Source: Cladopsammia gracilis
Lineage: Eukaryota; Cnidaria; Anthozoa; Scleractinia; Dendrophylliidae
Assembly (NCBI GenBank): GCA_022457155.1
Contig: JAJGOT010000708.1
Location: 62,001-126,000 of the forward strand
Direction: 5' to 3'
Length of the DNA: 64,000 nucleotides
In this document: piece after piece, positions 5,347 through 54,494 of the stretch
How positions within the stretch are numbered: the stretch's first letter is position 1
Layout: every line of letters starts with the position of its first letter
Notes under the pieces: model-generated
What the model was told of the DNA's origin: nothing
The model's database searches: none
What the model saw: only the letters and a program-made list of their open reading frames with translations
Program-made: the position numbers and the translations under genes

Positions 5347-5361
5347 TGTGTATATATAGTT

Positions 5362-10378: not shown

Positions 10379-10395
10379 ACACACGTATATAGAGA
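10379..10395 (+). promoter_or_regulatory. Short AT-rich spacer before the ATPase start
   Basis: ACGTATATAGAGA lies between the capsid stop and ATPase ATG 10396, a weak version of the TATATATA tract seen before other genes. Confidence 0.4.
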
Positions 10396-10994: not shown

Positions 10995-11016
10995 AAACAT
11001 ATATATACGCTGTGCC
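10995..11016 (+). promoter_or_regulatory. TATATATAC tract before small gene
   Basis: ACATATATATACGCTGTGCC ends at the ATG of 11017. It is the same motif and spacing as before neighbouring genes. Confidence 0.5.
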
Positions 11017-11257: not shown

Positions 11258-11275
11258 ATACATAATATATACGCA
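11258..11275 (+). promoter_or_regulatory. AT-rich promoter tract before gene at 11276
   Basis: ATACATAATATATACGCA lies directly before the ATG. Confidence 0.5.
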
Positions 11276-11893: not shown

Positions 11894-11898
11894 TCTGA

Positions 11899-11953
11899 AA
11901 GGAACCACGAAGGAACCTGACAGGAACCTGACAGGAACCTGACAGGAACCACT
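11899..11953. repeat. 11-bp tandem repeat
   Basis: AGGAACCTGAC repeated about three to four times, with partial units on each side, just after the stop of the preceding gene. Confidence 0.8.
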
Positions 11954-11965
11954 AAGGTTTGAAAT

Positions 11966-11989
11966 AAAAAAATATACATATATACACAC
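11966..11989 (+). promoter_or_regulatory. AT-rich promoter tract before gene at 11990
   Basis: AAAAATATACATATATACACAC ends at the ATG pair. Confidence 0.5.
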
Positions 11990-12427: not shown

Positions 12428-12446
12428 AAAATCTTATATATACACC
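12428..12446 (+). promoter_or_regulatory. TATATATAC tract before gene at 12447
   Basis: AATCTTATATATACACC directly precedes the ATG. Confidence 0.55.
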
Positions 12447-12668
12447 ATGGCTGACAAAAAGCTCGTGAAATCTGTTCTCGATGCAGCCACAATCACTGGC
12501 CTTGTCGCAAGTATTGGCTGGGTTGGCAAAAAGATCATCAAAGAAAATCTCACGGCCGACCCCAGCTCGAATCTCATGAACTATGTGAAATTCACTGCCG
12601 TCATGGCTGGGAGCATAGCTCTCAAGAAATATCTCGAGGACCAGAAGATCCTCCCTGCCTCAATGTAA
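12447..12668 (+). CDS. Small Polinton membrane-associated protein
   Basis: 73 residues starting MADKKLVKSVLDA. Two hydrophobic stretches (ITGLVASIGWVG and FTAVMAGSIALKKYL) flank a basic KKIIKEN turn. It is intact, with the TATATATAC tract directly upstream and only 18 bases before the next ATG. The small size and two short helices recall minor virion membrane or vertex proteins, but no function can be assigned. Confidence 0.6.
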   Translation: MADKKLVKSVLDAATITGLVASIGWVGKKIIKENLTADPSSNLMNYVKFTAVMAGSIALKKYLEDQKILPASM

Positions 12669-12686
12669 ATCATATATATATAGCAA
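12669..12686 (+). promoter_or_regulatory. TATATATATA tract before gene at 12687
   Basis: ATCATATATATATAGCA directly precedes the ATG. Confidence 0.55.
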
Positions 12687-13168
12687 TGGCCTCGATCGCT
12701 ATTATGGTTGGTGGAGCAATTTTGAATGCCGCTGCTTTTACTGGTGGCAACTAACTGGCAAAATGGAAAAGCTGCTCTGGAAGAGAAGACCAGACACGAC
12801 AAGGCGTTAGAGGTAACTCTCAAATAAAGCAAGGACCACTTGGACAAACAGCACGGCGAAGTGAAGCCGGATCTTGGTGTAGATCAGGATCAGCAGTATT
12901 GAATAAAACTTAAAACTAAATGCAAGGCTGATCGGACAGCTATAAAGGGTATGATCGGGTCAAAGATGAAGCGAAACACAACTTTCAATACACTGACCAA
13001 GCTCTGGTGCTCTACAACCAAACACATCGGGAGCAGCAAATAACACTTTCCAAAGAGCCCGAGTTCTCTGACTTCTATAAACCAGGCCCACAGCAGAAAC
13101 AAGGCGAACTCTTGTTTATCGGCACTGGCGCACTTGCCCTTGGATATGCAGCATTTTGCTTTCTGTAA
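12687..13168 (+). pseudogene. Small Polinton protein, broken by several stops and indels
   Basis: ATG 12687 gives a hydrophobic MASIAIMVGGAILNAAAFTG start and then a TAA within 25 codons. Collinear pieces in other frames include an LEEKTRHDKALE segment near 12776 and, at 13005-13168, LYNQTHREQQITLSKEPEF followed by a second hydrophobic segment (GTGALALGYAAF) ending at TAA 13166-13168. Hydrophobic ends with a charged middle suggest a two-pass membrane protein of about 150 residues. This is the most decayed gene of the rightward cluster. Confidence 0.55.
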
Positions 13169-13181
13169 AACACATATGTAT

Positions 13182-14170
13182 ATGGAGGCTAAACTCTCAA
13201 AGATCTATTACAGCCCCAAAGGCTACTGGAAAGGCCTTGCTGCTGTCAAAAAGCTAGCTACAGCAGCCAAGGTCTCTGAAGATGTGGCTAAAAAGTGGCT
13301 CGTCAAACAAGCCCTTTGGCAAGTATATCTCCCTACACCACGACATATTCCTCGGCCTAAGTTTGATGTTCAAACTCCTAATGCAGTGCATCAAGCAGAT
13401 CTACTTTTTTTGCCACACGACAAACTGCCTCATGGGCGAAAGATTTACAAATATGCTTTGACAGTTGTTGATGTAGCAAGCCGCTATAAAGCAGCAGAGC
13501 CATTGACTTCGAAAGAGTCTGATGAACTTTCGAAGGCGTTGGCCCGGGTATATAGACGCGGGCCTTTGAAATGGCCACAACTGTTGCAAGTCGATCCGGG
13601 GACAGAGTTTATGGGGGCTGTGACTAAAGAGACTGGGGCTCATAAAACAACCATTCGTCGTGGGCGTGTTGATATCCACAGAGACCAAGGGATTGTTGAA
13701 AGATTCAACAGAACCCTGGCTGAACGATTGTTTGGTTACCAGTACGCAGTTGAAATGAATCTGCCCTCTGGCCGTTCGACTGCTTGGGTTAAAAGATTGC
13801 CAGATGTTATCTCGGCCTTGAACAATGAAGTAACCCGGCTGACTGGCAAGAAGCCTGCGCAAGCGGTCAAAGAGAAAGCAACCTCAGCCAAGCCCGCAAC
13901 CCCATATGCTAGACCTGTGGGGTGAATGAAAAGAAGCTCCCACCTCGGGTTAATTTGCGATATCTATATTACCCCGGTGAGCTTGAGGGTGGTAGTCGAC
14001 GAGCGACGGATCCGATCTGGTCTTTGAAGGTCTACAACATCGAGAAGGTTGTCACCAATCCAAACGAGCCGGTTGTGTATTATCTGTACGACGGCCCCAA
14101 GCGCGGGTTCGTTCGTGAGGAGTTGATGGTTGTGCCGCCGGGCACTCAGTTGCCACCAGCTGGGTTGTGA
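13182..14170 (+). pseudogene. Polinton RVE (retroviral-type) integrase, frameshift before C-terminal domain
   Basis: ATG 13182 follows ACATATGTATA. An N-terminal helical region (no HHCC zinc finger visible) is followed by the RNase H-fold core. Catalytic residues are Asp in NAVHQADLLFLP, Asp in LLQVDPGTEFMG and Glu in RDQGIVERFNRTLAERL. The first frame ends at TGA 13923-13925. The C-terminal part lies in the overlapping frame to 14170, with a YYPGELEGGSRR and VYYLYDGPKRGFVREEL pattern suggesting an SH3- or chromo-like fold. Integrase cuts target DNA with the 6-bp stagger seen around this element. Its 3' end overlaps the antisense polymerase gene by 25 bases. Confidence 0.9.
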
Positions 14171-17100
14171 AACTCGATTGGTTCTGTGTGGATGCCGTCG
14201 GGCAGCACCCAGCGCTTGTCGTAGCAGGCGCTGAAGCCTAGCTTGCGCTGTTCGTACGTGTACATGGCCCCTTCATGCATTCGAAAGCCTCTGTTTGTTG
14301 CCATGTCCTTGTAGCCTTCAAGGGCCCGCTCGTATCTTTCCCACCGAAGCTCATTTTGCCGCTTGTTGACGCCCTTGGAGGACATCTTGGCCTCGCCGCT
14401 TTCCTCGTCTTCTACGTAATAGCACTTGCTGCACAGAGCGATGGCTCGAGTGCCTTCCTTTTCAAGCTTGAACAAGCCGGGTTCTCTGCTGCTCCACTGG
14501 TCCCAGGAGAGCCAGGTCTTTTTCTCCCTTTCGAACTGAGCGCGAAGTTCTGGTCGAACTGCTTCTTCGAGAGTGTCGTATGAAAGGGCGAAGTACATAC
14601 TGTCCGTGTCCATCTGGATAAGCTCGAAGTCGCGCCTGTCGAGATAGTGATCGAGGAACTCGTAGTAGAACTGCAGCATGCGCAACTTAGCAAGTTGATA
14701 GACAACGATACCGACTTGAAAGGGGCGGTTTATGGTGACCTTGTTTTTGCGCAACTCGATCTTGTATGAGCCCCCGATGTCTTCGAGATCTTCAAACCAG
14801 GCTGAGCGCAGGTGTTTGTCGACAGTGTCTTCGTCGTTGGTGTACACAACTCTTGTCTGTCGCTCAACAGCTTCGATGAACTTGCCGTAAGCGCTGTTGC
14901 CCAAAAGCTTGAACACTTCTGGAGCAAGGCTTTTTCCTTGTCAGCGTCGCCTTTCCTTCGAGCGTTGGCATCCTCCCGGACGAACCAGTCGAAGATCTTG
15001 ATGGGTGTGTAGTCGATCGTGCGGTAAACAGCGGTTATGTGGAGTCCGTGGTTGTGAAGCCACTCTAGCACTGGGGCGTAAAGCAGAATCTTTTTTGCTT
15101 GAAGCACGCCAAGTAGCTTCTTTTGGTCTGGCAAGTGGGTTCTATTGCTTTTCACGAGGTAATCCTTCATGTGCTGAGGGACGTCCTCTTCGCCCACGCT
15201 GCGGTTTACAAAGAGCGGAGGAAACTCTTCGAAGTGCTCCCACAAGTCCTGAGGGACTTCGATGTCGACCTCGGCAAAGCCAAACCACTGCTTCGTAATC
15301 AACTTGAACCAGAAGTCTCTTGATTGCGGCTTCTACTGGATCTTCGTAATAGACGACTTTCTCTTTACCACAGGGCATTTCCTGCAACATGGTGCTAGGG
15401 TAAAGGGAGTTCGCATCGAAGCCTAGAATACGCTTGACGATGCGAGCTAAGTCGTATTTGTGTGAGCGGATGCGGGTTTCGCCACGCACTTGTTTACGTG
15501 TGAACACCAAGCTAGGACCTCCAACCACAGCCTCTTTAAGCATTGCATAGGCTTCAGCGCTTGGGGCAAATAGTTGGGGTCGGTTACGGCCTCTCAGGGT
15601 TCCTCTCAGGATGTATTGCATCGAAACCCCAGGCAACGAAACAGCGTCTTTGAAAATGTCAACCCCGAGCTTGGTGTAAAACGCTTTCATTTTCTCGAGG
15701 GTTTCGAGAAAGGGAGTAACATCGAGGTTGTTGTAATACTCCAGCCAGTCTCCGAAGGTCTTCATGCCGCGCTCTTTGAAAACCCGCTCGCATTGTTTGT
15801 ACTCCTCTGGAGAAAGAACAAAGGAGTTTCGGAGTTGTGAGTACCAGCACCAATATGGCGGAAGCCCCTTGTAGTCAAGTTTGTCAGCACTATCAAACCA
15901 TTCGTATGGGAGCCAGGACTTTGTCTGTTTCGCCCCATACGTCTTTACCCATTTGTCGTAGTTGATGCCTGGGGACAGATAGTTTGTGACGTCGAGGAAC
16001 TTGAAGGGGGGCGTGTTGATGAACATGATTTGTCTCTGTTTCTCCCCTGCAAAGACGCCGTGTTCTTGTCCGAGATAAGAAACACAGTGTTTTCTGATAA
16101 GGTGCAGATCGTATCGACCTGAATTGAAGCCGACCACTGGGACCTGTTCACACCATTGCTTGATGAGTTTTTGTTGGTCTTCCGTTAACCCCTCAAGATC
16201 CGGCGGCATGTATTTTTGAGCTATATCATCTCGGATCGCGTTGCCACGGCGCTCCAGAGATTGATAAAACAGTCGGATAAGCTCTTGGCCGGGGAATCTT
16301 TAGAGCAAATGTACTCTGGCTCAGGCTCCAACGTGTCTGCAATGGAGACTGAGATAGGCACGTGCTCGCTTTCGTAAGAGAGATCCCTGGTCGGCTGACT
16401 TGCCTTGGTCATGTCTTGATAGGCTTCGAAGTCGTAGACGATAGCGTTTGGATACGTTTCGTTTCTTTTAGGGGGGATTCGATCGTGCCACCAGGGTCGG
16501 GGCATCTCGTGCTCCCACCTTTCAACCAAGTTGTAGCCAAGTGTCGTGAAGATCTGATTGATTTGCACAGTTCTTACGAAGGCTTGCTCCCTTGTGATTG
16601 TGTTGCCTTGACGGTCAGTCGTGATCACTTCGTTTTTTTGTTCAGGGGCCGGAAAGCACTCTCGACAACCGTGCCAGTGGCAGCCGTGATACTGAAACAC
16701 GGTTTTGCTTTCTGGGTGATAGCCATCAACTTTGTAGCGCCAAATGGTGCGCTCGCCTCCATGGCCACATCTGTGGTGGTGGATGTGGATGCCCCGCTGT
16801 CGAGCCTCATACTCTAGCCAGCAAGTTGCTCGAATGCCGAAACTGCCTTCTGGATAAAACGCCTTTTCAAAAGCTGACTCAGGAGCAAGGATCTGATTTC
16901 CCGGACAGGCAATATTAGTTTGCCCGCGAGTGCACGTCTTGGCGTGGCGCGCTAGGTTACAGGCTTTTGTGAACCTTGCCAAACAATCGCCACAAGTGTA
17001 GTTGTTTGTGACTTTGTTTATGTCAGTGATCAAGAAGGCATGAGCGTTGTAGATACCGATAGTCATCGTAGGGGTGCCGACTTTGTCGTAGCGCGAAGGT

Positions 17101-17972
17101 GTGTAACTCAAAACAAAGTTGCCGTCATCTGTAACAGTGTAAGCGGCAATCCCTTGTCTAAAGTGCCTTTCAAGCAAGTGAAACTTTTGTAAAGTAACAA
17201 CATTGCCATTAGGTCCACCTCTACGGTGAAGAGCAAAGAAGCTTTGCGCTAATGCTCTGGCTCTGCGAGTACTCCTGTCTATACGGGCGCCTTGATGAAC
17301 CGCCAAACACCGAAAGAGGCAAAGATCGTCGTTGTAGTTGTCAAGAGAGATGACTTCTCTTTTGTTACGAAGCCAGTCGGGCAACTCGCCAAGGCCGATT
17401 TGCAAAGGTTGTCGATCTAAAATCGCTTTGGCCTCAACAAAGACAGCGCTTTCGAAAACCCATTTCGTATCAGGCCTGTTGATTTTTTCACCTTGAAGAC
17501 GAAGCTCTTCTTGTTGTTGCAACCATCGCTTCGTTTGCGATAGTTTAGAAAACCAAGGGCTGCTGGTGTTTGTATAGTAAACGATGGGTTCACCGGTTTC
17601 GATGTTTCGCAGCTTGTAGGCCCAGGTAAGTTTAACTTTATGCCTTGTGCGAACCGATTGTTTGATTTTGTTCATCATTTGGGGTACAAGAGGTCTTGTT
17701 AGCCCCTGAGTAAAGCGCCAGTTTATTGTTCTCTGTCTTCGCCCCGGTCTGCCTTGTTCGCCATGTTCGCCACGGTCATATAGTTCAACAATCCGATTAG
17801 GCATCAGAAAGTTCCCCATACGCTCTCGATCTAAAGGGTCAAACCCTGCGAGGTCCTCGTTGCGAGGAGCCCTCAAAAGTGGGTTTCTTTCTTGAGCATC
17901 GAGCCAAGCGATAAGCTCGCGCTGAGGGATATTATCGAAAACGTCACGCTCGTTGTTCATGGGTCTCGCCAT
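14146..17972 (-). pseudogene. Protein-primed family B DNA polymerase, three frameshifts
   Basis: Starts at ATG 17972 after a TATATATATA tract. Frame changes lie near 16240, 15307 and 14917. An OTU-like stretch DDLCLFRCLAVH with a later YNAHAFLI, a C2H2 finger (CGDCLARFTKACNLARHAKTC type) and YHGCHWHGCREC precede the catalytic parts. Exonuclease motifs are IVYDFEAYQD, VVGFNSGRYDLHLI and YYNNLDVTPF. Polymerase motifs are FDANSLYPS (A, near 15400), KLLGNSAYGKF (B, near 14900) and MDTDSMYF (C, near 14600). In relatives it replicates the element from a protein primer at the termini. Combined length is about 1270 codons. Confidence 0.92.
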
Positions 17973-17992
17973 ATATATATATGGGTTTTATA
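17973..17992 (-). promoter_or_regulatory. TATATATATA promoter tract of the polymerase gene
   Basis: On the minus strand TATAAAACCCATATATATAT runs up to the polymerase start, the same motif class as the rest of the element. Confidence 0.55.
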
Positions 17993-35903: not shown

Positions 35904-37353
35904 CTAGCGAGCATAATCTTTTAGGTACGCAGGCTCTCTGATGGTTCTCTTGGGACGCTGTGGGACAGGAACGGCAGCAGGTGTGGGTTGCTGCTCCTTG
36001 GGTTGTTGGACAGTTTGTTTGCTGGTCCTATCTAGGTTCTGGCTCCGTTCTTTGTTCTGGGTCACTGCCTGGTTATCCTGTGGATGTTGTTCAGTTGACT
36101 TCGGTGAGGTGGGGGTGGGCTGTTGTTTCAGGTCTACTCTATTGCGACGGTAGGTCCCACTCGCAGACTCTACTTCGTAGGATCTTTCGTCATGTCGTTT
36201 CGTTACTGTCCCTTTTTCCCATTCTTTCCGTCCGAGTCTGAATGGTCTCATCCTTACTTCATCTCCTTTTTCCAAGGGGGGGAGGGGGGGAAGGTCTCGG
36301 GTGCTCTTGTTGTAATACTCGGCTTGTCGTGCTTGTCTTGCCCGAGTCTCCTTCTTAACTGTTTCAGCACGTACCACTTGTGGCCTCAACAACTCTTTGG
36401 TGGTAGGGAGTTGCGTTTTGCATCGTCGGCCTAACAGTCGTTGGGCGGGGCTGGTATCCATTGATTCGGTTGGAGTGTTTCGTAGTGCTAGGACTGCAAG
36501 GTATATGTCTCCTTTGGTATCTTTCGCCTTACGAAAGAGTCGTTTTGCGTCCTTCACAGCTGCTTCTGCTTTGTCGTTGGTCTGTTGGTGTCCCGGGCTC
36601 CCTGTGCGGTGCTCGAAACCCCACTCGCTTGCAAAGCTGGCAAACTTCTCGCTGGCAAATTGCGGGCCATTGTCACTGATAACAATGTCTGGAATTCCCT
36701 GCCTTGCAAAATAGCACTTCAACTTCTTTACGACGGTGCTCGCTTTTGTGTCAGGTAAATTGTCTATTTCCCAGAAGTTTGAGAAATAATCAACGATGAT
36801 TAGATAATCTTTGCCATCAATAGTGTACAAATCCGCACCGATCTTCTCCCAGGGGCGTTCCGCAACTTCGTGACTCATCAGGGTCTCTCTCTGCTGCTTT
36901 ACTTCATATTTGCTACATGTTTCGCACTGGGCGACATACTCCTTCAGTTCTGCAGTCATACCAGGCCAGTACATGCACTCTCTGGCTCTTCTTAAACAGC
37001 CATTCACGCCAATGTGTGAACTGTGAATACGCTCCTTCATCTTTGCTCGCATTGGTTTTGGAACGAGAAGGCGCTCGCCTTTGAAGACAAGACCATCATA
37101 GACACTCATTTCGTCGCTGAAATTAAAGTATGGAGCTAACACGGCTGGGAGCTGCTGCTTTTCTTCTGGCCATCCAGCATGTATCACCTGCTTTAGCTGC
37201 AGCAAAACTTCATCATCATGGGTGCTGGTTCTCATCTCCTCGAGTCTTTCCTCAGTCATCAGTAGCAGTTTAACAGCATTGAAACGCTCAAACTCTCCTT
37301 GGGTGTTCTGCGTGGTGGGTAGAAATGCCCTGCTCAAGGTGTCAGCAAGGTAC
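35904..37353 (-). pseudogene. Ty3/Gypsy integrase
   Basis: Zinc-binding HHCC region (HIGVNGCLRRARECMYWPGM then QCETC) followed by the DDE core: Asp in EKIGADLYTIDG, Asp in IVISDNGPQFAS, and Glu in TNDKAEAAVKDAKR. The C-terminal domain has PLEKGDEVRMRPFRLGRKEW, then a Gln/Pro-rich tail ending KRTIREPAYLKDYA. The frame itself is open; its junction to RNase H is broken by the MITE at 37354. It inserts the cDNA of this element. Confidence 0.88.
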
Positions 37354-37784
37354 CGTATTCATGTCTTCGAATAATAGCCGGGGGCGATTATTAACTTTTT
37401 CACTTCAAAAGGGGGCGATTATTCGAGGGAAGGCGATTAATCGAGAGGGGCGATTATTTCAAATATTGCTCGCTGGAGGTTCTAACGTGCTAATGTGCTA
37501 ATTTGAGAGCCCCTAGAAATATAGTAAAGAGTCAAATACACGAACGTCACTATAAAAAAAACTACATGAAACCTGTGCTTTTATAACTTTTCTGTAATTG
37601 TAACGATTGTTTCCTTTGCAAAAAGTGAACTTTTAACTTGACTGGGACGATTTGCAAGAAAAGAGAGGGGATGGGGCGATTAATCGAGGGAGGCGATTAT
37701 TTCAAATATTTCCACCAAAGGGGGGGGGGCGATTATTCGAGAGGGGCGATTAATCGAGGGACGGCTATTATTCGAGGAAATACG
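37354..37784. mobile_element. MITE inserted between Gypsy RNase H and integrase
   Basis: 431 bp with termini CGTATT and AATACG, duplicated GTAC on each side (37350-37353, 37785-37788). The interior has repeated GGGGCGATTATTCGAG and GGCGATTAATCGAG units in both orientations. Taking it out leaves the pol frame continuous. Confidence 0.85.
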
Positions 37785-37788
37785 GTAC

Positions 37789-38771
37789 ATTTCTGGCCCA
37801 GGTTTGTAGACGATCGTGACGTCATATTTCTGTGTCTTCAATAGCATCCCTTGAAGTCTCTTGGGTGCAGTTCGTAGTGGTTTGTTGGCAATCGCCGCTA
37901 GTGGCTTGTGGTCACTCTGGACTGTTACAGGGCGGCCATACACATACTGATCGAACTTCTGTAGCGCGATAACTACTGCCAGCATCTCCTTCTCTATCTG
38001 GGCATAACGCGTTTCAGGGTCTGTAAGGGCGCGACTGGCAAATGCCACAGGTTGCCCAAATTTTGCATGAGGGCTGCCCCGAGTCCCTTGTCGCTTGCAT
38101 CACATTGGACTGTGAGCTCTTCGTCAGGGTTGTAGTATTTCAGCAAGGGTGCGTGTGTCACAAGCTCTCTGACTTTCTCAAAGGCTGAGTCATGCTCAGG
38201 TTGCCACTGCCACAATGCTTCTTTGTGCGTTAACTGCTGTATGGGCTCTAGCACTTCCGCTAGTCGGGGCAGGAACTTGGCGAGGTAGTTCACAAAACCA
38301 CAAAATCTTCTCACAGCATTCATATTGCCGGGCTTGGGCATATTGCGTACTGCTTCGATCTTCTCTGGATCCGGTTTAAGACCATCTGCTGTGACCAGAT
38401 GTCCCATGTAGGGTATCTCCTTACATAGCAACTTCAGCTTCTTCTTATTCAGCTTTATCCCTCTTTGTCTACATCGCAGGAGGAACTGCTGTAACTTTCT
38501 GTTGTGGTCAGCTACTGCCTCTTTTTCGGTATCTCCAGTTCCATATATGACCATGTCATCATGGACTGTGAGCAAACCATCAAGTCGGTCAAGTGCCTGG
38601 TTAAGCCTCTTTTGGAACATTTCACTGGCTACACTGACTCCAAATGGAAGTCGTCTCCATCGGTACCTCCCATAAGGAGTGTCAAAGGTTGTCAGCTTGC
38701 TCGACGCCTCATCCAGTTGGACATGCCAGTAGCCATTTCTTGCGTCTACTTTGGTGAAGACTTTTGCTCGT
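37789..38771 (-). pseudogene. Ty3/Gypsy reverse transcriptase (from motif A) and RNase H
   Basis: Starts abruptly at FTKVDARNGYWHVQLDE (motif A), then RWRRLPFGVSVASEMFQ, LTVHDDMVIYG (motif C, HDD where YxDD is usual), KKLKLLCKEIPYMGH and RRFCGFVNYLAKFLP. RNase H follows with LTVQCDASDKGLGAAL and, after a shift near 38050, FASRALTDPETRYAQIEKEM and TVQSDHKPLAAI. The fingers of RT are missing. Confidence 0.85.
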
Positions 38772-38773
38772 AA

Positions 38774-38830
38774 GTTAGTCGGCCCAACAATTAGGGCGTT
38801 GAATGGTAGCTTTCTTGGGTCTGAGTGCAT
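38774..38830 (-). pseudogene. Packaging ATPase, N-terminal stub
   Basis: Nineteen codons (MHSDPRKLPFNALIVGPTN) equal to the start of the gene at 10396, cut inside the Walker A loop where Gypsy RT sequence begins in the same frame. Confidence 0.8.
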
Positions 38831-38850: not shown

Positions 38851-40104
38851 TTAATACTGAACCGCCTGCAGCTGCCTGTCCATGATGTTCATCTGTGAGT
38901 CACTGATGGTGTAGATGTGCCGGCAAGGTACGTTTCCCTATCCAGTAGGCTTTCTTTCAATCTTAAGGTGTACGCCGTCTTTTTTGTCGACGAGACGTAT
39001 GCCACTACCGTGCATGGTTGTGTCAGCCATTGATCTCAGATCGATAAGGAGGCCGAACTTGTTGCCCGTGAGAAATTTGGTCAGATTCATGTTAGGTCTA
39101 CCACCACTCTTTTTTCCGAAGAATCGGTTGATTTCAGTCCACATGTCCTTGTCATCGATGCCATTGTTGGAAATCCTGTTGGGCGAACCGTTTATTGTGA
39201 CATTCACTTTGGTGATGTCGGGGTTGAAGTATCTTTCGGAGTCCCTGGCGCCTGCCGTGTAGGGCTCGATAAAGAGCAGAAGAATGGCCTTGAGTGATCT
39301 GCGCTGAGGGTTGATCCGAAGGTTCAGCCTAGCGTCGGTGCCTTTCGCAAATGGAACCACCTCTTCTCGCATCACATGGTCGTAGGCGAACTCCTTTCCG
39401 CCAGAGTAAATGCTCTCCGCCTCGTCAGCCAGTGATTTGCTGCGGATCGTCTCGTACTCAAGCTTGATATTTGTCAACTTGTAGACAAACTTACTTGTAT
39501 CCGAGCCCCTTACAACCTGAGATGCCGATGCAAGCGTTAGTTCAAAGATAAGATCGTTGTAGAGAGCCTGTGGGTATGAAACGCCGTGGTCGGTCAGGAT
39601 CTGGTGGTCCAGATTGATGCGGTATTTGTTTTTGTAAACGCTCTCCAGCTTATTTTCTGCATGCACACCAGAGGTCTTCTTATTGCTGACATTAGAGCGG
39701 ATCTTACACAAATCAGCACTCTGGATGCCCTCCAGTAGCATGTTATCGCGCTCATCCACTGAGAGAAACAGGTCCTCAAATATTTTGTAAATGTCATATC
39801 CAACAGTATCCTGGACAGTGGTGGCAGCAAATTTCACAACGAGTTTGTCAACCAGCGCCCGAGAAACATTCTGGACTAGAAAGTTGTCTGCGTGGCCGCC
39901 GGCAAGCTTGATGTTAAAAAGCAGGGCCAGCGAGCCCGACACGATAACTTCATGTTCATTCAGCTTAGGCACCGAAACGTATAGGGTCTCGCCAGGCTTC
40001 GCCTCAGTGCGGTCAAATGTGATGCGCTTTACGGTGCGCTCTGCTTTCATTGCACCAAGATTCTTCTCGTAATGCCTGGGTCGGAGGTTTGGTTGTTCAG
40101 CCAT
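38851..40104 (-). pseudogene. Major capsid protein, second copy, frameshift near C-terminus
   Basis: Starts at ATG 40104 beside the AT-rich divergent promoter; an in-frame upstream extension exists but overlaps the promoter. The body matches 9128-10378 along its length (PGETLYVSVPKLNEHEVIVS, DNMLLEGIQSADL, QRRSLKAILLLF). The frame stops at 38938; the last 25 or so codons, ending MDRQLQAVQY at 38851-38853, lie in the next frame. One indel near 38935 explains this. Confidence 0.85.
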
Positions 40105-40146
40105 GGTATATTTATATGTTTGTTTAAAATTTATATAATATACATC
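40105..40146. promoter_or_regulatory. Divergent promoter of capsid and coiled-coil genes, second copy
   Basis: 42 AT-rich bases (GTATATTTATATG, then AATTTATATAATATACATC) between the two ATGs, same layout as 9090-9127 although the sequence has diverged. Confidence 0.65.
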
Positions 40147-41349
40147 ATGGCTGAAGGCGGCTTTGATCCAACAACTGAAAATGAGGATGCATGGCTTGAC
40201 GATCTGCTTGATGAAGATGACGATGATGATGACGAAGATGAAGAAGTTGACACAACACGGCCCTTTCAACCAGGCGCTGCTTCCACCCCATATCATAACG
40301 GTGAAGAGCATGAAATGCACACATTACCTCGCGATCAGAGCGGACTGCCAGACACCCCTCTGCTTGGAGACTTCTTAGATTTAACTGATAAAACACAGAA
40401 GGTTAATAAAGCCAAGGACATCATCAAAACGTTATACCCAAAAGCGGCTATGGACAAATTAGGCCCAATTAAGTTCGGTAGAAAAAGAGGAAATGAAAAC
40501 AAAATCGTTTCCTTCGGGCCACAGGGTGGAGAGTCTGACATTTTTAAGAAAGATGGTTCAGGCCTTCTTAAATCGTTCACAGATAGGTTTAAAGAGGCTC
40601 TTGGTCCAAGCGCTGAAGAGATTGTCTCTGAAGACAATACGGTAATAAGGGAAGAAAAACAAAGGGTAAAAGAAGCAGAAAAACAACTGAAACAGACGGA
40701 AAGAATTGCTGTAAAACGACTACAAGCAGCAGATGAGGTGCAAAGCCTTAGGGACAGAATCGGTCAAACTCAATCGAGGATTGACGCTCTGGAACAGGAA
40801 CAAGGTTCAAGCGTCGAGAGTCAAAACGAGTTGGAAAGACTGAAACAACTGAAAGAGAATCTTCAAGGCGATCTGGAAAACCAGAAAAAAGAATTAGGCG
40901 CCCTTCAAAAAATACAAAAACAAAAAGACAAAGAACAGGCAAAAGTAGACAAACTCAGAACACAACTTTCGGCCAAAGAAAAAGAAAGAAATGCTGTCAA
41001 AGCAAGACTGCACAGCACTAAACCCCTTGAAGATCTAAGAGAACGAGAAGCCGAGCTTGAACGTCAAAACGAGGAAGACAAGCACGTGATAGAGGATGAG
41101 AACACGTCACCTTCTGACAGAGAAGCCGCGGAAGTGAGAGTTGCAAAGCGTGAAGAAGAGCTGGCAAGGTTAAGAACACAGGTTCAAGAAAGGGATTTAC
41201 CTTTGAGAGAAAGGATCAAAAATCGTTTTATCTCCTCGAAAACACGAAACAATTTGCATATAACGCCATGCACGAACCTGACAACCGAGAAAGGCAGAAG
41301 AAAATTATTTCACACTTTCACTGAAGATGTAAAACGGTACATTTTGTGA
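40147..41349 (+). pseudogene. Coiled-coil protein, second copy, membrane tail replaced
   Basis: Starts MAEGGFDPTTENEDAWLDDL with a longer acidic run than copy one, then the same HTLPRDQ, KFGRKRGNENKIVSFG and coiled-coil blocks, up to LPLRERIKN. At about 41222 the homology ends, and the three hydrophobic segments of copy one are replaced by unrelated residues to TGA 41347-41349. It would lack its membrane anchor if made. Confidence 0.85.
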
Positions 41350-46105: not shown

Positions 46106-46392
46106 TCACTTTTTTTTGTTGCAAAACTTCTCTGCTAAATCCTTACGATTTACAAATTTATGACACAAGGCATTGTGCAAGACTCTGTATGTGGCTCCTG
46201 AGCCAAACTTCTTTTTCCACTGAAACAACATTGCTAATGTTTGTTTAGCATATTCGTCATTATTCTTTCGAAATGCAGTTATTTCTGCGTCGGTGAATTT
46301 CAGGCGCCGAGCAACAGCTTCCCAAGAATCCCCAAGCTCCATTGACAGCTCTTCTAATTTATCTTTACTAGGGGTGTCATCTTTGATCATGG
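46106..46392 (-). CDS. Exon 7 of GT-death gene: death domain
   Basis: Acceptor TAATTATTGCAG, then 95 codons and stop. The domain reads KLEELSMELGDSWEAVARRL, a KFTDAEITAFRKN helix, TLAMLFQWKKKFGSGATYRV and LHNALCHKFVNRKDLAEKF, the six-helix death-domain pattern with the conserved LG-x-x-W near its start and L-x-x-W mid-domain. It ends with a lysine tail. It probably binds other death-domain adaptors in the cytosol. A lone reading of this exon has an ATG in the preceding intron, which I reject in favour of splicing. Confidence 0.88.
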
Positions 46393-46432
46393 CTGCAATA
46401 ATTAGTAGCAAGTCAATTTTATAAAAGGACTA

Positions 46433-46498
46433 CACATGTTCATCAGACTATTGCACGTGTTCATCAGACTATTGCACGTGTTCATCAGACTATTGCAC
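46433..46498. repeat. 21-bp tandem repeat in the last intron
   Basis: Three units of GTTCATCAGACTATTGCAC(GT), just upstream of the death-domain exon. Confidence 0.92.
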
Positions 46499-46607
46499 GA
46501 GGTTCAAGGTGAGAGAGTGCATAACCAAGCAAGGCTCAGATCAATGGTAATTCAATCGTCTTCATTTATTTTTTAGAATAACAAGAATCGGGTTTATATA
46601 CAGTATA

Positions 46608-47077
46608 ACCCCGCCAACTCCCAAGCGAAACAAAAAATAGTTCTAGTTAGCGGGGTTGGTGCTGAATTTCAAGCATCCTGTTTATAACTAATAAGGTATT
46701 GTGGTTTTCAACTGTTTATAAGAGGATGGCTATTCCAAAATACTAGTACTGTAAATGTTCAATAAACGTTTGGCTCATGTCGATAAAGCTGTACATGTAA
46801 CACACACAACAAAACGGAAACTGAAACATTTTCAATTTTCAACGTTCTTATAAAACGAAAATAGTTAACTCTTTGAGTTAGAGTTATTAGGGTAAATTTG
46901 AGCCAAGGGAAAGTAAAATTAGTTCGAGTTAGCGGGGAGTTCGAGTAAACCGAGTCCGAGTTATCTGATGGTAAATGCGTGAAAAAATGGGGTCAAATCC
47001 AGAGGAAATCAGATTCGGTTCGAGTTTAAGCGGGATTTCGAGTTAACCGAGTTTGAGTTAGCGGGGTTCTAGAGTAT
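46608..47077. mobile_element. Pogo/mariner-like MITE in the last intron
   Basis: Ends ACAGTATAACCCCGCCAACT and GAGTTAGCGGGGTTCTAGAG form imperfect terminal inverted repeats. Further GAGTTAACCGAGT-type repeats lie near the right end. No coding sequence. Confidence 0.6.
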
Positions 47078-47237
47078 GTTCGTCAAACAAGTATTACTAT
47101 GCTTACAGTAAAAGATTCTCATCTGAAAGGTAACACTATTGGATGCCATCTGCAAACTTACAGAAATTTCCGAGGTCAGAGGCACATTTAATGAACACAA
47201 TATTGATTCTAGAGTAAAAAAGAAAACATAACACAAC

Positions 47238-47324
47238 CTGCAATCCGCGCAGTCGGGGCCACGGGTTGTTCAGACTTGACACTACCAGCTCGTAAAGGTG
47301 TCTTTCGTTTTGTAGCTGACTCTC
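47238..47324 (-). CDS. Exon 6 of GT-death gene (linker)
   Basis: 87 bases, acceptor TTTTTTTTCATAG, donor GTTGTG, phase 1 on both sides. Encodes GESATKRKTPLRAGSVKSEQ and then PVAPTARIA. It resembles the exon at 52439-52504 in its last 25 bases, pointing to exon duplication. Confidence 0.75.
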
Positions 47325-48702
47325 CTATGAAAAAAAATAAAAGTAAACTCAATCTGTCGTGCCATTCAGCCTTACTATGTGTCATTGCTTAAAAATATAG
47401 GAAAAAGGATTCAAATTTTGAATTATCAATTCCAAAGATGTGATGTGTACTCCTCACACCAGCTCATAACTCATTAAAACGTTTGTTTGGTTATGTGTTC
47501 CAGTGGCGGACCAAGGGAGGGCCCGCCCCGCCCCCACACCTAAAAAAATAAGGCCCGAACACTCGAAATGCTTTTTCAGTCTCTAACATTTTCACTCTCC
47601 TATTCACTCGCCCATGCCCTTGTAATGAAATCAATGTGGTTTCAAGCTTAACCCTCAGTTTTGGTGACAAAAACCAACCAAACACGGTTTATGTTAGAAG
47701 ACTACTAACAAATCCATTAACTAAACCAACCAAACACAGCTGATCCAGTAAACACCTGCCTGGCGACACGCAGAGATGTTAACAGTGCGTGTTCGTCTGT
47801 TCTTGTCTGATTCCAGTAAGTTTAAGCCATTCAGGTTGAAACAACAACCAGAAGAACAAAAGAACAATAGAACTGTTTGGAGTGACTGGAGCGAACTATC
47901 AATTAGCCTAGGAATGTCTCGAACACAGTTGTGGAACAACGGGTATGATTATCTTTAGTGAAATCTGAAGGCCAAAACGGATGCAAAGGCCTGGTGTAAG
48001 TACCTCTTTCTTTCGAGATCTCTATGATCCATTAATGAGCAGAACTAGAGCTTAAGAAACTCTCGGGGAAAACCCAATGAGCCATGGCTGTATTTTGGTA
48101 CCAGCAGTTGAGACCATGTTACCACCTCGGTTACTGGAAAAGTGAGAGTTGAGGCTTGCAGAAACTCCATAAAATGAAACTGGTCTTAATTTGTTCTTTC
48201 ATTTGTTAATCGACAAGTTGTATATCCAAAAAGACTGGCCTGAGAGCGGCCTTCACGTAAATACTTAACATCAAGCAATCGTAGTTCTAATAAAGGTAAA
48301 CATTAAAGAAGGAAGCCTTTGGTTCTTTGGTCACCCATACAAGTGACGAAGACGAATGTCCACTGCTTCTGCTCTGTTCGGTGAGGTACGACCACTAACA
48401 AGTTCAAGTTACAGTTTTGTAAAGCAGATCATGGGTCACCAAACTGCATAATGTTTGCAGGAAAGCAGTAGACGACAGGTGGAAACTAGTCCAAGAGGCC
48501 AAGCTAAGTTTCAATTGTTTAAAGCCTAGTAACCACAAGCATTTTTACAAAATCTGTCGCCATCCTAAGTATGCCGTTGCGGATTGTGGTCGCCGAGATC
48601 ACAAGTTACTTCAAGGTCAGCCCCCGGTGACTACACCCAACAACCAACACTACAGCTGAGTATTCAACTAGTACTACACCCAGTAACCAACCAATACTGA
48701 TT

Positions 48703-48840
48703 TTAGTGGACTGGCCGCTACAAAACCTGCATCGCTTGTAAAGGAGACATTTCAGTAAACAGCATTAGCCAGGTCGTCAGTGAATGGTCAAGAAATGACA
48801 GTTCATTGGGTGTTGTACTAGATTCTGAGAGTCAGCGTTC
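48703..48840. repeat. Intron segment duplicated at 51945-52078
   Basis: Both contain GTGGAYTG-CYGCTACAA, CATCGCYTGTAAAGGAGAC, CAGTGAATGGTCAAGAA and CTAGATTCTGAGAGTCAGCG in the same order. A third trace is at about 49430-49460. The copies flank linker exons. Confidence 0.8.
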
Positions 48841-49685
48841 CGCCTCTCGGTGGAGGCGCGTGCTGAAACGGTCGGCGGTGCGTACCCGTAGTGGGGGAGA
48901 AAATCTTCTCGCGGGATCGAGGTTGTAGCCACTTTCCGTCCTCACGGCTAATGGCTGCCATCGTCGAGCGAGATGGTGAAGTTCGGCGTTGGACTGCGTC
49001 TCGGAAATGTGAGTTCTTGGCAATAAAATTACGGAAAAAGTTGGCACAACTATCGATCTTGTTTAATACGAGGATAGAGGGACAATGTGTGTTTTTCTTC
49101 ATTTTAATCAACCGCGTTTTCTTGCGCGGCCTCGTCGACTCGACCAAAATACTTTCCAACCTTGTCTTATATTTATCCATGATGGTGCGCATGGAGGAAA
49201 ATACTCAAATACAGGCCACGGAGGGACCCAATGAACAAACAAAGACACTAGGTTACATGTTAACACTTTATTTCGAACTTCATTTGTACTTTTTAAGAGA
49301 AAAGTTATTAATTTCGTGCAGAAATTTTCGCAAATGTTGCAAAGCAAAATAAACCTAAACAAAGCTCAATTCTAGTACCCAGTTTCCGTACTCGCATATT
49401 GTGCTTGGTTCACCTGTGGTTTCACAGTGGATTGGCCGCTACAAAACCCGAGTTGGACCAAACCGACAGAAAATGATGGGCCCACTAAACCTAGGAAACA
49501 CTTTCGTCTTCATCATCACTAACGCACATTGGTACTGAATTTGAGGGACCCTTATATGTCAAAGAGGGATCAGGTGTCACCTGTGCGTCATCTCGTATAG
49601 GTCACTTGAAACTAACAAAAAGGACCAACGGGCAGATGAATTTTTACAAGCATCTTTGCGACACACTAACAGTATGGTCAGACAA

Positions 49686-49871
49686 TAGGCCATTTGCACG
49701 ATGGCGTCATTTGACTACAACTACCAGAATTCATTTCGTTTTTCCTTTCTTGTTTAAATTTTGTAATCCCAGTGCGGTTTAAATAACAATAGCCCTAATT
49801 TGCACTACAAAACAAAAAACTGAAGGATTCTGGTAGTTGTAGTCATATGACGTCATCGTGCAAATGGCCTA
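49686..49871. mobile_element. 186-bp palindromic MITE in intron 5
   Basis: AGGCCATTTGCACGATGGCG and its complement at the other end (CGTCATCGTGCAAATGGCCT), with TA-type flanks. Arms of about 45 bp. Confidence 0.85.
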
Positions 49872-50533
49872 TAGATGAACCGAAGTAAGAAGTTGTACGC
49901 CCAGTCCAAGACTGGGTCAGTATGGGACACGTTTAAACAAGATGGTATCTATCAGGTCAGGGTGATCAAGTGGAGAGTCATCACAGGAGAGGTGGTTGGT
50001 GGGAACAATTTTGCAGAGCGAAAGAGCACTTCTCACCTCACTGAGCTTAACACAGTACATTATTTATCAAAATCGAAGTTGTCATTAACTCAAAACCATG
50101 AACTGCAGTAAGTGACGATCACAGAGGTGCGTTGCCTATCACACCTGCTCATCTCGCCATTGGTAGATCACTTTACTATTGGTCTCATGCTTACGAAGAT
50201 AGCTTGAAAGATTACTCAATCACTACTGAAAGCGTTGTAAGTCGATTTACAGCTGCGTCGAGTGGGAATAAGGTACGTTGTATAATTGAAAAGAAGGCTG
50301 TTTGTATTTCTTTGCGTTTCGATCCACAACCCCTTCCATATGATGTAAAATTCTCGACTCCTAAATCAACCACTGGTGCCAATTTTCCGAGTCCTACAGC
50401 TGAACCTCTGATATCAAATTCCCACTACCCTAGCTATGGCAACTAATGAAATGCATGGGGGTTGCCTGGGTTGGCCGAGGGATGTTGAAATTTTTATTTG
50501 CTTGGTACAATACTAATGGATAACGATGATTAC

Positions 50534-50629
50534 CAGAAGCTTCAGGTTGTTTTTTTCCTTTTGAGGAGGTGGTGCTAGAACTTGTTCCCTTTTTCTTTAA
50601 AGTTAAACGCTGCTTTTTTGCAGACGGAC
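50534..50629 (-). CDS. Exon 5 of GT-death gene (linker)
   Basis: 96 bases, acceptor TTTTCATTGCACAG, donor GTAATC, phase 1 both sides. Encodes GPSAKKQRLTLKKKGTSSST and then TSSKGKKQPEAS, strongly basic with a possible nuclear-localisation stretch KKQRLTLKKK. Confidence 0.8.
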
Positions 50630-50839
50630 CTGTGCAATGAAAAGGATAGTTAAGTGATTTTCTAGGAAATGGATATTACAAAAAGAGATGTTAAGTGGCG
50701 ACTCAATTAACTGCAATTAGCATTTATTACATGGGTCCAATCAAGAGAACATAAAGCTTTATGTTCTCTTGGTCCAATATAGAACTGAAGATCTTGAGTG
50801 AGCTTTAACAGCTGTAATAAACGTTTAGAAGATCTGTAT

Positions 50840-51448
50840 AGTTAAACCTCTCTAATACGGACACCGAAAGAACAGAGCAAAGTGTCCGTATTAGAGATGT
50901 GTCCGTATTATAGAGGTCACCACGATGACGTCACTATTAAGGCTTCACTGACAGTTTTAAGTCTTCATTAACTAAACAGGCCCACACACGTCTTTTAACT
51001 GCATCTAAATTGATTAATGTACAGTATTGAGACACTGTCTATCAGTAGCGTACTGCATTGTGGCTCAGTTACATACTGTATGCGAATCACTGTTTTGAAA
51101 CGAAACAAACTACAACACAATGCTGCTTGTAAAAAAGTAATACAGTATAAAGTACAATTCTGAAAACGTCTTTTGATATTTTCCCTGTAACCACAAACAG
51201 GGAATTGTATTACATACACAAACTATCATTGCCTGATCACCGGAGTGTCCGTAATGAAGAGTTAAGTTTATATGAATTTGATCCCTGGAGCCGAGATTTA
51301 GTGTCAGTTGTCCGTATTAGAGAGGGTCCGTATTATACGGTATTTTTTAAAGAAAATATGCGTGAATTTTGTCGGAACATAGGAAACTCTCCGTAATAGA
51401 AAGGGTGTCCGTATTAGAGAGGTGTCCGTAAGGAGAGGTTCGACTGTA
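50840..51448. mobile_element. Tc1/mariner (pogo-like) MITE in intron 4
   Basis: Ends GTTAAACCTCTCTAATACGG and its near complement (GGAGAGGTTCGAC), TA on each side, with several internal GTGTCCGTATTAGAGA repeats. Confidence 0.75.
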
Positions 51449-51638
51449 GTTGCAAAGAACCTGTTCAAATTGCCAAATAAAATACTGAGGTCATCGGTCA
51501 AGACTTTAAGTGAGAGACATGCAGTCAGGCATACACATAGACAGAACCAAAAAAATGGATGAATAGGTCTCCGACTATTTTACTGATATAGATAAAACAA
51601 TCATTTTTACCAGTTTGTATTTATATCATTTTGATTAC

Positions 51639-51698
51639 CTGCAAATGAGGATTCTCCCTTTCGCTTTTCGGTAGTGGAAGATGAACTTGCCGAAGGTC
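51639..51698 (-). CDS. Exon 4 of GT-death gene (linker)
   Basis: 60 bases, acceptor TTTATTACACAG, donor GTAATC, phase 1 both sides. Encodes GPSASSSSTTEKRKGESSFA. It starts with the same GPSA as exon 5. Confidence 0.8.
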
Positions 51699-51944
51699 CT
51701 GTGTAATAAAGTGAGAAAAGTTCAATGCTGTGATTTGCAAAGCGTTGAATGTAGCAATTATGATATTAAGTAGGTAGTTAATACAAGCCCACTAGTATTG
51801 TACATATAAATTATAGACAGACATATGGCATGAATGACCGATCTCGAAAGCTGTGTTTAGTTGCGCGTTCTATAGATATGTAATGATATTAATATACGTC
51901 GTGTTCTCAGTATAGTTTCAAGCCAAACCGTTTTTCGGTCGATT

Positions 51945-52078
51945 TTTAAGTGGATTGACTGCTACAATATCAGCATCGCCTGTAAAGGAGACGTAGACAC
52001 TTCAACAAGCAGCGTAATAGGCAGTGAATGGTCAAGAATGGCAGTTCGTGTCGTACTAGATTCTGAGAGTCAGCGTTC
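51945..52078. repeat. Intron segment duplicated from 48703-48840
   Basis: See 48703-48840. Same orientation and word order, with scattered substitutions. Confidence 0.8.
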
Positions 52079-52438
52079 GTCAGGGTTCACACAGAAACTA
52101 AGAAACAAAATTCCATAACTTTCCAATGACTTTTCCAGCTGGATTTTAAATCCAATTCCATGGCCTACTTAAAATAGGCCCACGTAGCTGCACGTTTTGA
52201 TGGTTGACACAAAATTTCCTAAATGTTTTTTTTTTTAACCACCACCTAAAAACAACTTTTACAAAAGTATGAAATGTCATGAATTTTTCTTAACCAAAAC
52301 TATTTCTTCAAATCCATAGCTTTTCCAGGCCTGGAATGCAATTTTAAAAAGTCTGAGCTTTGCCTTTTCTTCAATAAATATAAGTCGATGTTTCAATTTT
52401 GGACTGTACAAATTGAATTAAAGATATCATTAAATCAC

Positions 52439-52504
52439 CTGCAATCTGCACAGCCGCAGTATGAGAACTGGTTGACTTCCACTTTAGTTTTGAAACTGGT
52501 TGAT
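52439..52504 (-). CDS. Exon 3 of GT-death gene (linker)
   Basis: 66 bases, acceptor TTTTGTTTCTTTCAG, donor GTGATT, phase 1 both sides. Encodes DQPVSKLKWKSTSSHTAAVQ and IA. Its 3' end parallels exon 6. Confidence 0.75.
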
Positions 52505-52943
52505 CTGAAAGAAACAAAATAAAAATATATATTTAATAAAAACTTGTCTTGCAATAATCTCATCTCAACGTGTTACTTTAGTTTCGATCGGTTTTCTACG
52601 CGTTGTTTTATTTCATACATGCCTCGTCAATTTTACTATACCAAGGCACCCTGGGTCTTGAAGACAGTATCTTTGTCCTCATTGCAGTGGTGCATGATGA
52701 TTAATAATATTAGATAGAGTTGTATTATAGTCATCAAACAGCATTTCCAGTTCGTACGGAGTGTGCAACCCACTACAGTCTCTGGATATAGATCGGAAGT
52801 AGCTAGGTCAGATCGAATGCTATCCAAGTTAACACCACCAACTTTCCTGTAGGTTACTTTTCTGGCATTGATCACAGGCCTACTTATGTGAAAAGTGGCC
52901 TACTTATCATTTGAAGAAGCGCTATATAAATAATTATTTTCAA

Positions 52944-52950
<7 letters not shown>

Positions 52951-52981
<31 letters not shown>
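52951..52981. repeat. ATT microsatellite
   Basis: About ten uninterrupted ATT triplets in intron 2. Confidence 0.97.
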
Positions 52982-53320
52982 GTTGGATTCATAGTTGAAT
53001 TTCTTAGCTGTGTTATAAATATATTTATTCCTTCATGAATGTTTGGAACATTTTTTTCGTTTTCCTTCATGAGCAGTATGAGGTAGCATTTTTATTCAGT
53101 ATATTTCGAAACACTTTTGTTTCTCGCTGTTATATCGATTTCATCAAATCCCTTTCTGCAATTTGCTTCCTCTTTTAAGTTGTCAGATACGTACAGAGCC
53201 AAAAATTGGGAAAACAAACCTTTGACTTAGGTGGTATGATTTCATTTAAAATTCAAAGCTATATGGGATAAAATTTTAAATGTGAGTTACATGATCGTTG
53301 CAAAAATAGAAAAAGCATAC

Positions 53321-54494
53321 CATTGCGAATGGCCCTCATCTTTTCTAGGAGACCTCTAGATTGTTCCTCCCAGTTGTACATCTTGGCATAGTTCTCAAGA
53401 ATAAATTTTGATTCTTGTAGGCGAACTGCTCTATCTTTTTCCCAGACCTTACCAATTTCGTCAGCCCACACTTCAACATCCTCAGAGGAAATTACACATC
53501 CCTGACCAAAAGGAACGTTGCTCAGGGCTTCTCCAAAACCCGAATTGGCACCGACGAGAACAGGCAGTCCTGCTGACAGGGCTTCCAGTGCGGCAAGTCC
53601 GAAACCCTCGGTTCTCGATGGCATGATGACCAGATCCACCTCAGAGAACAGCTGTATTAAATCTTCCCGGATCTCTTTATAAGCCCTCACTCTTAGTCGA
53701 CTTGGAGGTAGACTGCATTCCTTTAAACGAACTGCTACTTCTTCTTGTTGCTTGTTCGGTGCGCCAACAAAGACGAGATGTGCATAATTTAGCTTAGCTA
53801 CGGCTTTAGCTGCAATGTCAAATCCCTTCAAATGAAAATCTTCAGCATCACCACGACCAAACGCTAAAACTCGACACTTCTTTCCTTCTTGCAGGCTCTG
53901 TACTACATTAGAAAATTCGCTGAAAATACCTGGTGTAAGTTCAACGACATTTTCATCTTTCTTGCAAAATCGAAGGTAAGAACGAAAAGCCTCAGCCAGC
54001 TTAGGCCCCACTGCCACAACAAAGTCAGCCATAGAACAGAGTTTCACTTCCTCTTGATGCTTCTTTTCCCCCTTGGATACTGCATCTGGGTAATCCTTGG
54101 ACATTCCGAGCTCCTCTGGGTCGGTATGTACGAATTGTATCCACTTGCACTGACGATTTCGTTTTATTAATTGCGCTGGGCGACCAAGCACTACACCATG
54201 TCCTATTATAAAGTCGATTTGGAGGTCGTCTGGTGGCGAGCAAAGCCAGTAGATTTCATCATAACCGGGCATTTCTGTTGCCTGAACCAGGGTGATGTTG
54301 TTGTTTCGAGCTGCTTCCTTTTCTTCCTGGTTGAACCGTGGGAGTAAGATAGAAACCTGCACTTCTGGATGTTTAGCTAATTGTATAGCTAGCTCTCTGT
54401 TCAAAGTGGACAATCCACCAAACTTTGATCCCCACTCCGAAGCCAGTAGTACTATTCTCATTTTAGCGGATGATTCCATTGTACCTGGATGCAG
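53321..54494 (-). CDS. Exon 2 of GT-death gene: glycosyltransferase domain
   Basis: Start ATG 54479, 386 codons, donor GTATGC at 53320. The N-terminal Rossmann half begins MRIVLLASEWGSKFGGLSTL with the GG-x-S-x-x-x-x-x-LA pattern of GT-B acceptor lobes, and continues with FIIGHGVVLGRPAQLI and WIQFVHTDPEELG. The C-terminal half has RVLAFGRGDAEDFHLKGFD, a YAHLVFVGAP strand, DLVIMPSRTEGFGLAALEA (E-x7-E motif binding the nucleotide sugar) and LPVLVGANSGFGEAL. This is a complete GT4-type fold that should transfer a sugar from an NDP-sugar; the acceptor is unknown. No signal peptide is visible, so it is probably cytosolic. Reading past the donor ends in an intronic stop. Confidence 0.92.

Follow-up and report, generated by a model that had tools for sequence, protein, structure and literature searches.

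This study concerns a 64,000-nucleotide stretch of the genome of the coral Cladopsammia gracilis (GCA_022457155.1, contig JAJGOT010000708.1), referred to here as the window, which covers positions 62001-126000 of the contig (C306 in our numbering of the 877.8 Mb assembly). On the minus strand of the window, from 54494 to 46106, lies a gene whose six exons are predicted to join into a stop-free frame of 584 codons followed by a TGA, with the ATG at 54479. The gene fuses a glycosyltransferase (GT) of the GT4-conflict family to a C-terminal death domain, and the analysis described below confirmed this GT4-Death fusion as a real, conserved gene structure as predicted from genomic sequence. The internal exon borders are all AG/GT and the junctions are all in phase 1. 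An earlier note on this DNA had proposed the same exons, borders, phases, and codon count, and all of them were found where it had put them; it had also named a stop in the joined mRNA as grounds for giving up the model, and none occurs in the joined frame up to the TGA. The exons of the gene, in the order in which they are read, are the following.

53321..54494, minus strand: GT4 exon; 15 bases, the ATG at 54479, then 386 codons plus one base; supported by splice borders and frame, and by a PF20706 match of the exon alone (E 3.4e-88).
52439..52504, minus strand: linker exon 1; 66 bases, phase 1-1; AG/GT borders and open frame; start and end recur in paralogous loci.
51639..51698, minus strand: linker exon 2; 60 bases, phase 1-1; AG/GT borders and open frame; also present, acceptor included, in three paralogous loci.
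50534..50629, minus strand: linker exon 3, less secure; 96 bases, phase 1-1; AG/GT borders and open frame; splice rank 4 of 113; no paralogous match.
47238..47324, minus strand: linker exon 4, the least secure; 87 bases, phase 1-1; AG/GT borders and open frame; splice rank 48 of 113; the 3' end alone matches elsewhere.
46106..46392, minus strand: death-domain exon with the stop codon; AG acceptor, phase 1; PF00531 match of the exon alone (E 1.5e-14).

The GT exon and the death-domain exon appear firm and the linker exons less secure. Linker exons 1 and 2 recur at the DNA level in the paralogous loci C306b, C261a, and C1368a; linker exons 3 and 4 do not recur in these three loci, although a DNA comparison shows a likeness between the 3' ends of exons 4 and 1. 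Among the 113 open phase-1 candidate exons in the 6928 bases considered, linkers 1-4 rank 2, 7, 4, and 48 by a crude, home-made splice score. Because every border is in phase 1, any linker can be skipped with the frame intact. Homology of the linkers to those of Oculina proteins and of P0121 (both described below) was considered and rejected by a shuffle test. In 15 comparisons with 1000 shuffles each, even the best (exon 4 against P0006) had its score reached by 22 of the 1000 shuffles, the lowest count, and the likeness is therefore mostly compositional.

The enzyme half had been described in the earlier note as a complete GT-B exon with an E-x7-E sugar-nucleotide motif, and that description holds. 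Residues 11-377 of the joined protein match GT4-conflict (PF20706) in Pfam with an E-value of 3.7e-88, and the match is near full-length (296.6 bits, profile positions 2-385 of 385). The argument for this family rests on the height of the score, because the bare PF20706 cut-off of 26 bits is lax and was passed by 14 of the 14 control genomes. Two generic cyanobacterial GT4 controls, one of which came from a contig scan for relatives with two peptide patterns (one relative found), gave no PF20706 match at an E-value of 1e-3. The E-x7-E pair corresponds to E291 and E299, and the basic residues R209 and K218 are present. Across 37 aligned coral-type GT4 sequences, hand-chosen from the matches, H118, K218, and E299 are found in 37/37 and R209 in 34/37, and residue 291 is Glu in 32 and Asp in 5. 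H118, R209, K218, E291, and E299 presumably serve in sugar-nucleotide binding or at the donor site. The catalytic signature is intact, and both enzyme activity and the use of a nucleotide sugar are predicted. The GT exon is under purifying selection: the ratio of nonsynonymous to synonymous substitution rates (dN/dS) against the window exon is 0.41, 0.41, and 0.45 for paralogues at ~87% identity and 0.24 and 0.26 for those at ~70%, values that rest on five paralogues, with dS saturated for two others at ~51% GT identity. The earlier note had proposed a check for expansion or rapid evolution; the family is expanded, with all 60 of the scored GT4 candidates in this genome matching, but the GT exon itself is conserved.

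The same note had suggested that the protein acts as a sensor or an effector in a cell-death or immune pathway, and of these the effector is better supported by the sequences compared; the cell-death or immune role itself is putative. If the GT4 half were the sensor, it would recognize a microbial sugar or nucleotide sugar and the death domain would signal on to caspases or NF-kB. C-terminal death domains are described as outputs in receptors (PMC8195603), and the expansion of the GT4 family (60 of 186 candidates scored, all matching) would suit such a role. However, sensors of varied invaders would be expected to diversify, and the acceptor half (residues 7-190) shows the same level of conservation as the donor half (residues 196-360), with mean identities of 0.665 and 0.661 over 666 pairs of the 37 chosen sequences, in which the catalytic signature is kept as well. 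The sensor is therefore placed below the effector and considered unlikely, since the GT4 half is conserved including its acceptor side and the same domain ends bacterial P-loop proteins, which are described below.

The C-terminal part of the joined protein, residues 500-578, matches Death (PF00531) in Pfam with an E-value of 4e-13 and a score of 49.7 bits, compared with a curated cut-off of 22.6. The text of PMC8195603 names as marks of death domains a Trp in helix 2, another in helix 4, and an R-x-D motif at helix 6; the Trp pair and the R-x-D, here R-K-D, are all present in the death domain of the window. Both Trp residues are found in 6/6 aligned death domains and R-x-D in 4/6. A profile search of solved structures returned THOC1 (1.3e-13), RIPK1 (1.9e-11), CRADD (5.4e-10), ankyrin-2 (1.5e-9), and FADD (7.3e-8), and a single-sequence search of solved structures placed CRADD first (2.5e-7).

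That the two domains belong to one gene is supported by proteins of other corals. The earlier note had proposed a search of cnidarian proteomes for the GT4 and Death pairing, and it is found in P0006 (551 amino acids) and P0018 (552 amino acids) of Oculina patagonica and in P0115 (827 amino acids) of Montipora capricornis, all three of which are database gene models and thus predictions. The two species belong to two suborders of Scleractinia according to a taxonomy look-up. The GT parts of P0006, P0018, and P0115 are 66.0, 66.5, and 54.9% identical to that of the window protein, the linkers 27.0, 30.7, and 24.3%, and the death domains 58.7, 46.6, and 51.6%. The pairing occurs in 3 of the 120 matches listed, or in 4 of the 120 when P0178, in which Roc sits between GT4 and Death, is counted from a profile search. 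The length of 112 of the 120 listed matches is 370-470 amino acids, and these are read as probable single-exon GT frames. Organisms are named for 8 of the 120 (Oculina, Montipora, Acropora, and Porites), and Acropora and Porites are stony corals. A protein search with the death domain returned one protein and is no census, because it missed three GT4-Death proteins found otherwise.

The arrangement also recurs within the genome of C. gracilis, in which 60 of 186 GT4-conflict candidates and 150 of 346 Death candidates were scored; the 60 GT4 candidates are all over the cut-off and 59 are stop-free. For eight of the 60 scored GT4 exons, that of the window among them, a scored Death match lies downstream in the same orientation at a distance of up to 16 kb, with 0.08 expected under uniform placement, a comparison in which the 16 kb limit was chosen after the lists had been viewed, the lists were paired by eye, and the expectation ignores clustering. 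In all eight GT4-Death loci, the GT exon ends at a phase-1 donor in the homologous place, and the death exon is preceded by an acceptor that is also in phase 1. The AG of this acceptor is at the window's place in six loci and three bases further on, still in phase 1, in C261b and C1368b. Because the GT exons of the other seven loci are ~87, 70, or 51% identical to that of the window, the arrangement has outlived much divergence. The eight copies may amount to four or five loci, because C261 and C1368 appear to represent two haplotypes and C306b is near a contig end. Around 12 other GT4 exons, taken non-randomly from the end of the list of the 52 remaining scored ones, three death-domain queries found no death exon within 10 kb. 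The 12 downstream stretches held one NACHT-LRR, one TRADD-N-like, and one LRR-like match, and nine were without a match to 13 query pieces within 10 kb. Independently of these pairings, Death matches that exceed the cut-off number at least 150 in the genome, and contigs C1292, C224, C1004, C409, and C261 hold many each.

These observations bear on whether the death-domain exon could be a separate gene and the join an artefact. The death exon of the window has an ATG right behind its acceptor, and the models in which both domains occur elsewhere are, like the join here, predicted. Among the eight loci, however, the ATG is found in that of the window only, and none of the 12 other GT4 exons has a death exon within 10 kb. 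The separate-gene reading was rejected as extremely improbable because the splice phases of donor and acceptor are conserved in 8/8 loci and the Oculina and Montipora relatives carry both domains.

The gene is without a NACHT module, as the earlier note had claimed: NACHT was found neither by tblastn nor by Pfam in the gene, nor by tblastn in the window (two coral NACHT pieces, E 1e-3) or in the eight GT4-Death loci (E 1e-5). The joined protein has no Pfam match to NACHT/NB-ARC or to TRADD-N, TRADD-N gave no tblastn match in the window or the eight loci, and LRR gave no match in the gene or the window. GT domains in coral NLR-type proteins, which the earlier note had mentioned, are published (PMC8195603, PMC12314368). 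Kaur et al. 2021 (PMC8195603) predict an effector role for GT4 and describe more than 500 GT4 paralogues with variable architectures in Acropora digitifera, GT4-TRADD-N-LRR proteins in cnidarians, cephalochordates, and hemichordates, and bacterial conflict-system relatives of the coral GT4. The family name GT4-conflict, the published coral expansion, and the bacterial relatives were all missing from the earlier note. The glycosyl transferase group 1 genes of Acropora are also described as expanded, with TPR, LRR and NACHT, or ankyrin repeats (PMC12314368), a glycosyltransferase is mentioned with NACHT or NLR in PMC4083563, PMC5013795, PMC8260672, and PMC13133943, and GT appears in a figure legend on NLR domains in PMC11508797.

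GT4 in coral immune-type genes is thus known, and what differs here is that GT4 is joined to Death without NACHT. This combination is not stated in the published text searched, figures and source data being outside that scope, and no priority is claimed. The metazoan conflict-type GT4 proteins share with the gene of the window the GT4 family, the taxa, and an apoptosis-toolkit adaptor behind the enzyme; the difference is that the text names TRADD-N, LRR, and other fusions and that the join to Death alone is absent from that text, with Figure 6 and the source data lying outside it (PMC8195603). The coral proteins with NACHT and glycosyl transferase group 1 have the same kind of GT domain in coral immune-type genes, whereas the gene of the window has no NACHT or LRR match. 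Such NACHT proteins were reportedly described by Hamada et al. 2013, a paper to which PMC4083563 and PMC12314368 refer.

Several other domains stand behind GT4 in relatives. A TRADD-N-like domain is over the Pfam cut-off in P0122 and below it in P0003, P0125, P0126, and P0134; ZU5, NACHT, polyubiquitin, and Roc with Death (COR-A below the cut-off) are found in others, and P0205 has NACHT and LRR in precomputed Pfam. In P0097 of Oculina patagonica (817 amino acids), the GT4 part is common with P0018 and is followed by other sequence with a weak GDSL-lipase match, which may be yet another C-terminal end to an almost identical GT4 part or else a chimera in the gene model. P0121 combines PNP_UDP_1 with Death, and its enzyme half matches the PADLOC PN-superfamily effector model. 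It resembles the protein of the window in that a predicted effector enzyme is joined to a death domain (54% identical to the window's) and differs in that the enzyme is of the nucleoside-phosphorylase type and not GT4. A phosphorylase fused to a death-like domain is a published bacterial parallel (PMC8195603).

Relatives of the GT exon are also found in bacteria. By tblastn at an E-value of 1e-5, the exon matched 6 of 72,556 plasmid records (five Rhizobium and one Sinorhizobium) and no phage record. The proteins L002 (1637 amino acids) and L003 (1645 amino acids) have a C-terminal GT4-conflict domain (E 8.9e-113 and 2.9e-109) and, close to the N-terminus, a P-loop of the form GMGK[ST]. No STAND domain scores over the Pfam cut-off in L002 or L003, so the label STAND-like is our own reading of the motifs. 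The GT exon of the window is 29% identical to L003 over 329 columns, and acceptor-side motifs are common to the coral and rhizobial GT4 and absent in the two generic cyanobacterial GT4. Family and acceptor-side motifs are therefore the same in L002, L003, and the protein of the window, but in the bacterial proteins the enzyme is C-terminal, the P-loop is in the same chain, and there is no death domain. In Sinorhizobium medicae pSymA (1257-9594), the gene of L003 is immediately followed, on its own strand, by genes for SIR2 (PADLOC E 2.2e-81) and HerA (5.1e-172), a pair that we take to be a phage-defence system. The adjacent P-loop and GT4-conflict gene, for which PADLOC has no model, is a candidate for a role in defence. 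Lateral transfer of GT4 has been reported (PMC8195603) and is taken here from that paper, no tree having been built.

The explanation that we favor, at about an even chance, is that the gene encodes a GT4 effector enzyme that is recruited by its C-terminal death domain to complexes of other proteins. Going by what the families suggest, a sensor with a compatible death domain would assemble upon threat, the GT4-Death protein would join the complex by homotypic contact through its own death domain, and the crowded enzyme would transfer sugar to a nearby target. As output, a molecule of the host or of an invader would be modified, for defence or cell death. The same enzyme may serve corals both in cis, fused to a sensor or switch of its own (GT4-NACHT-LRR, GT4-Roc-Death), and in trans; in the present protein, sensing would fall to a different protein and the death domain would be the plug. 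What drives the enzyme would be the P-loop part of its own chain in the bacterial proteins, and likewise in the coral GT4-NACHT-LRR proteins, and recruitment in the present case. Because the acceptor-side motifs are common from rhizobia to corals, a constant and perhaps cellular target is suggested. The pairing of an enzyme with Death also in P0121, with PNP_UDP_1, and the nearness of the death profile to RIPK1, CRADD, and FADD are consistent with an effector, as are the purifying selection on the GT exon, the varied C-terminal partners of GT4 in relatives, and the SIR2 and HerA neighbors of L003. An effector role of GT4 and the recruitment of effectors by adaptor domains have been argued in PMC8195603.

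Other observations weigh against recruitment of an effector. In the profile search, the death domain matches THOC1 best and not a death-receptor adaptor; the neighbors of L002 are integrase, recombinase, dfrB, and Tn3 transposase genes and not defence genes; and neither the GT4-Death protein nor L002 or L003 is matched by any PADLOC model. For the death domain, comparison with the five paralogues used for the GT exon gives a dN/dS of 0.46-0.76, which exceeds that of the GT exon and could also reflect relaxed constraint. THOC1, which we take to be an mRNA-export protein, and the ankyrins, which match too, would fit a housekeeping or nuclear role in which the death domain is a plain docking module and the basic linker (21 Lys/Arg and 6 Asp/Glu in 103 residues) leads to the nucleus or to nucleic acid. 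The GT4 genes of this genome, however, are many and varied, with immune-type partner domains in relatives, which is unlike a housekeeping enzyme, and such a role seems quite unlikely. Docking, going by the domain matches, would put the enzyme beside partner death domains and could also make it a brake that glycosylates the death domains it docks onto and shuts the signal off. There is a precedent in an injected bacterial glycosyltransferase that modifies host death domains, but it belongs to another glycosyltransferase family, and we regard a brake as very improbable.

With the recruited effector as the favored explanation, the paralogous loci tentatively raise a further possibility, which we hold to be doubtful: a cassette system in which a catalytic GT4 exon is kept near-constant by gene conversion and phase-1 death-domain exons are exchanged and diverge, allowing the enzyme to be summoned by many death-domain sensors. 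In the loci compared, the catalytic exon tends to stay constant and the death-domain exon tends to diverge. The GT exons of C306b and C261a are identical (dN and dS of 0), and their death domains are 64.8% identical (dN 0.198, dS 0.289); at the DNA level the two loci are 97-98% identical upstream, 99.88% over 14,617 bases through the gene, and 77.6-80.1% across the death exon and beyond. This pattern fits ectopic exchange or gene conversion and may equally be an assembly join near a contig end. The GT and death-domain dS values are 0.044 and 0.184 for C261b/C1368b and 0.082 and 0.142 for C70/C22, whereas C261a/C1368a shows little contrast (0.011 and 0.019). The window and C306b are 90.8% identical over 1357 bases at the GT exon and 73% over 472 bases at the death exon, and between the two exons one 441-base piece aligns at 69%.

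If the gene encodes such an effector, enzymes of a family known from bacterial conflict systems have been coupled in an animal lineage to the standard plug of apoptosis, giving a glycosyltransferase counterpart of RIPK1. Both proteins would have an N-terminal enzyme, a middle stretch, and a C-terminal death domain, with a glycosyltransferase in the protein of the window where RIPK1 has a kinase. The GT4-Death protein would be a concrete effector candidate in corals, and its gene offers a testable route to the role of GT4 in immunity, a role that is predicted from sequence in PMC8195603. A constant enzyme with exchangeable adaptors, if true, would be a further case of modular diversification in immune genes.

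The window also holds mobile elements. Polinton/adintovirus-like frames lie at 5362-17987 and include DNA polymerase B (PF03175, E 6.4e-8), a packaging-ATPase-like frame (PF04665, 3e-5), and an integrase frame (rve, 4.4e-6, below the cut-off); the other large frames of this region have no Pfam match in a frame-by-frame search. Two frames at 38938-41349 resemble, by eye, those at 9107-10378 and 7689-9125 in opposite orientation, and this is perhaps a partial second copy of the element. At 35907-38830 on the minus strand are the remains of a retroelement of the long terminal repeat type, with an integrase frame (H2C2 zinc-binding and rve) beside a frame that by eye is reverse-transcriptase-like.

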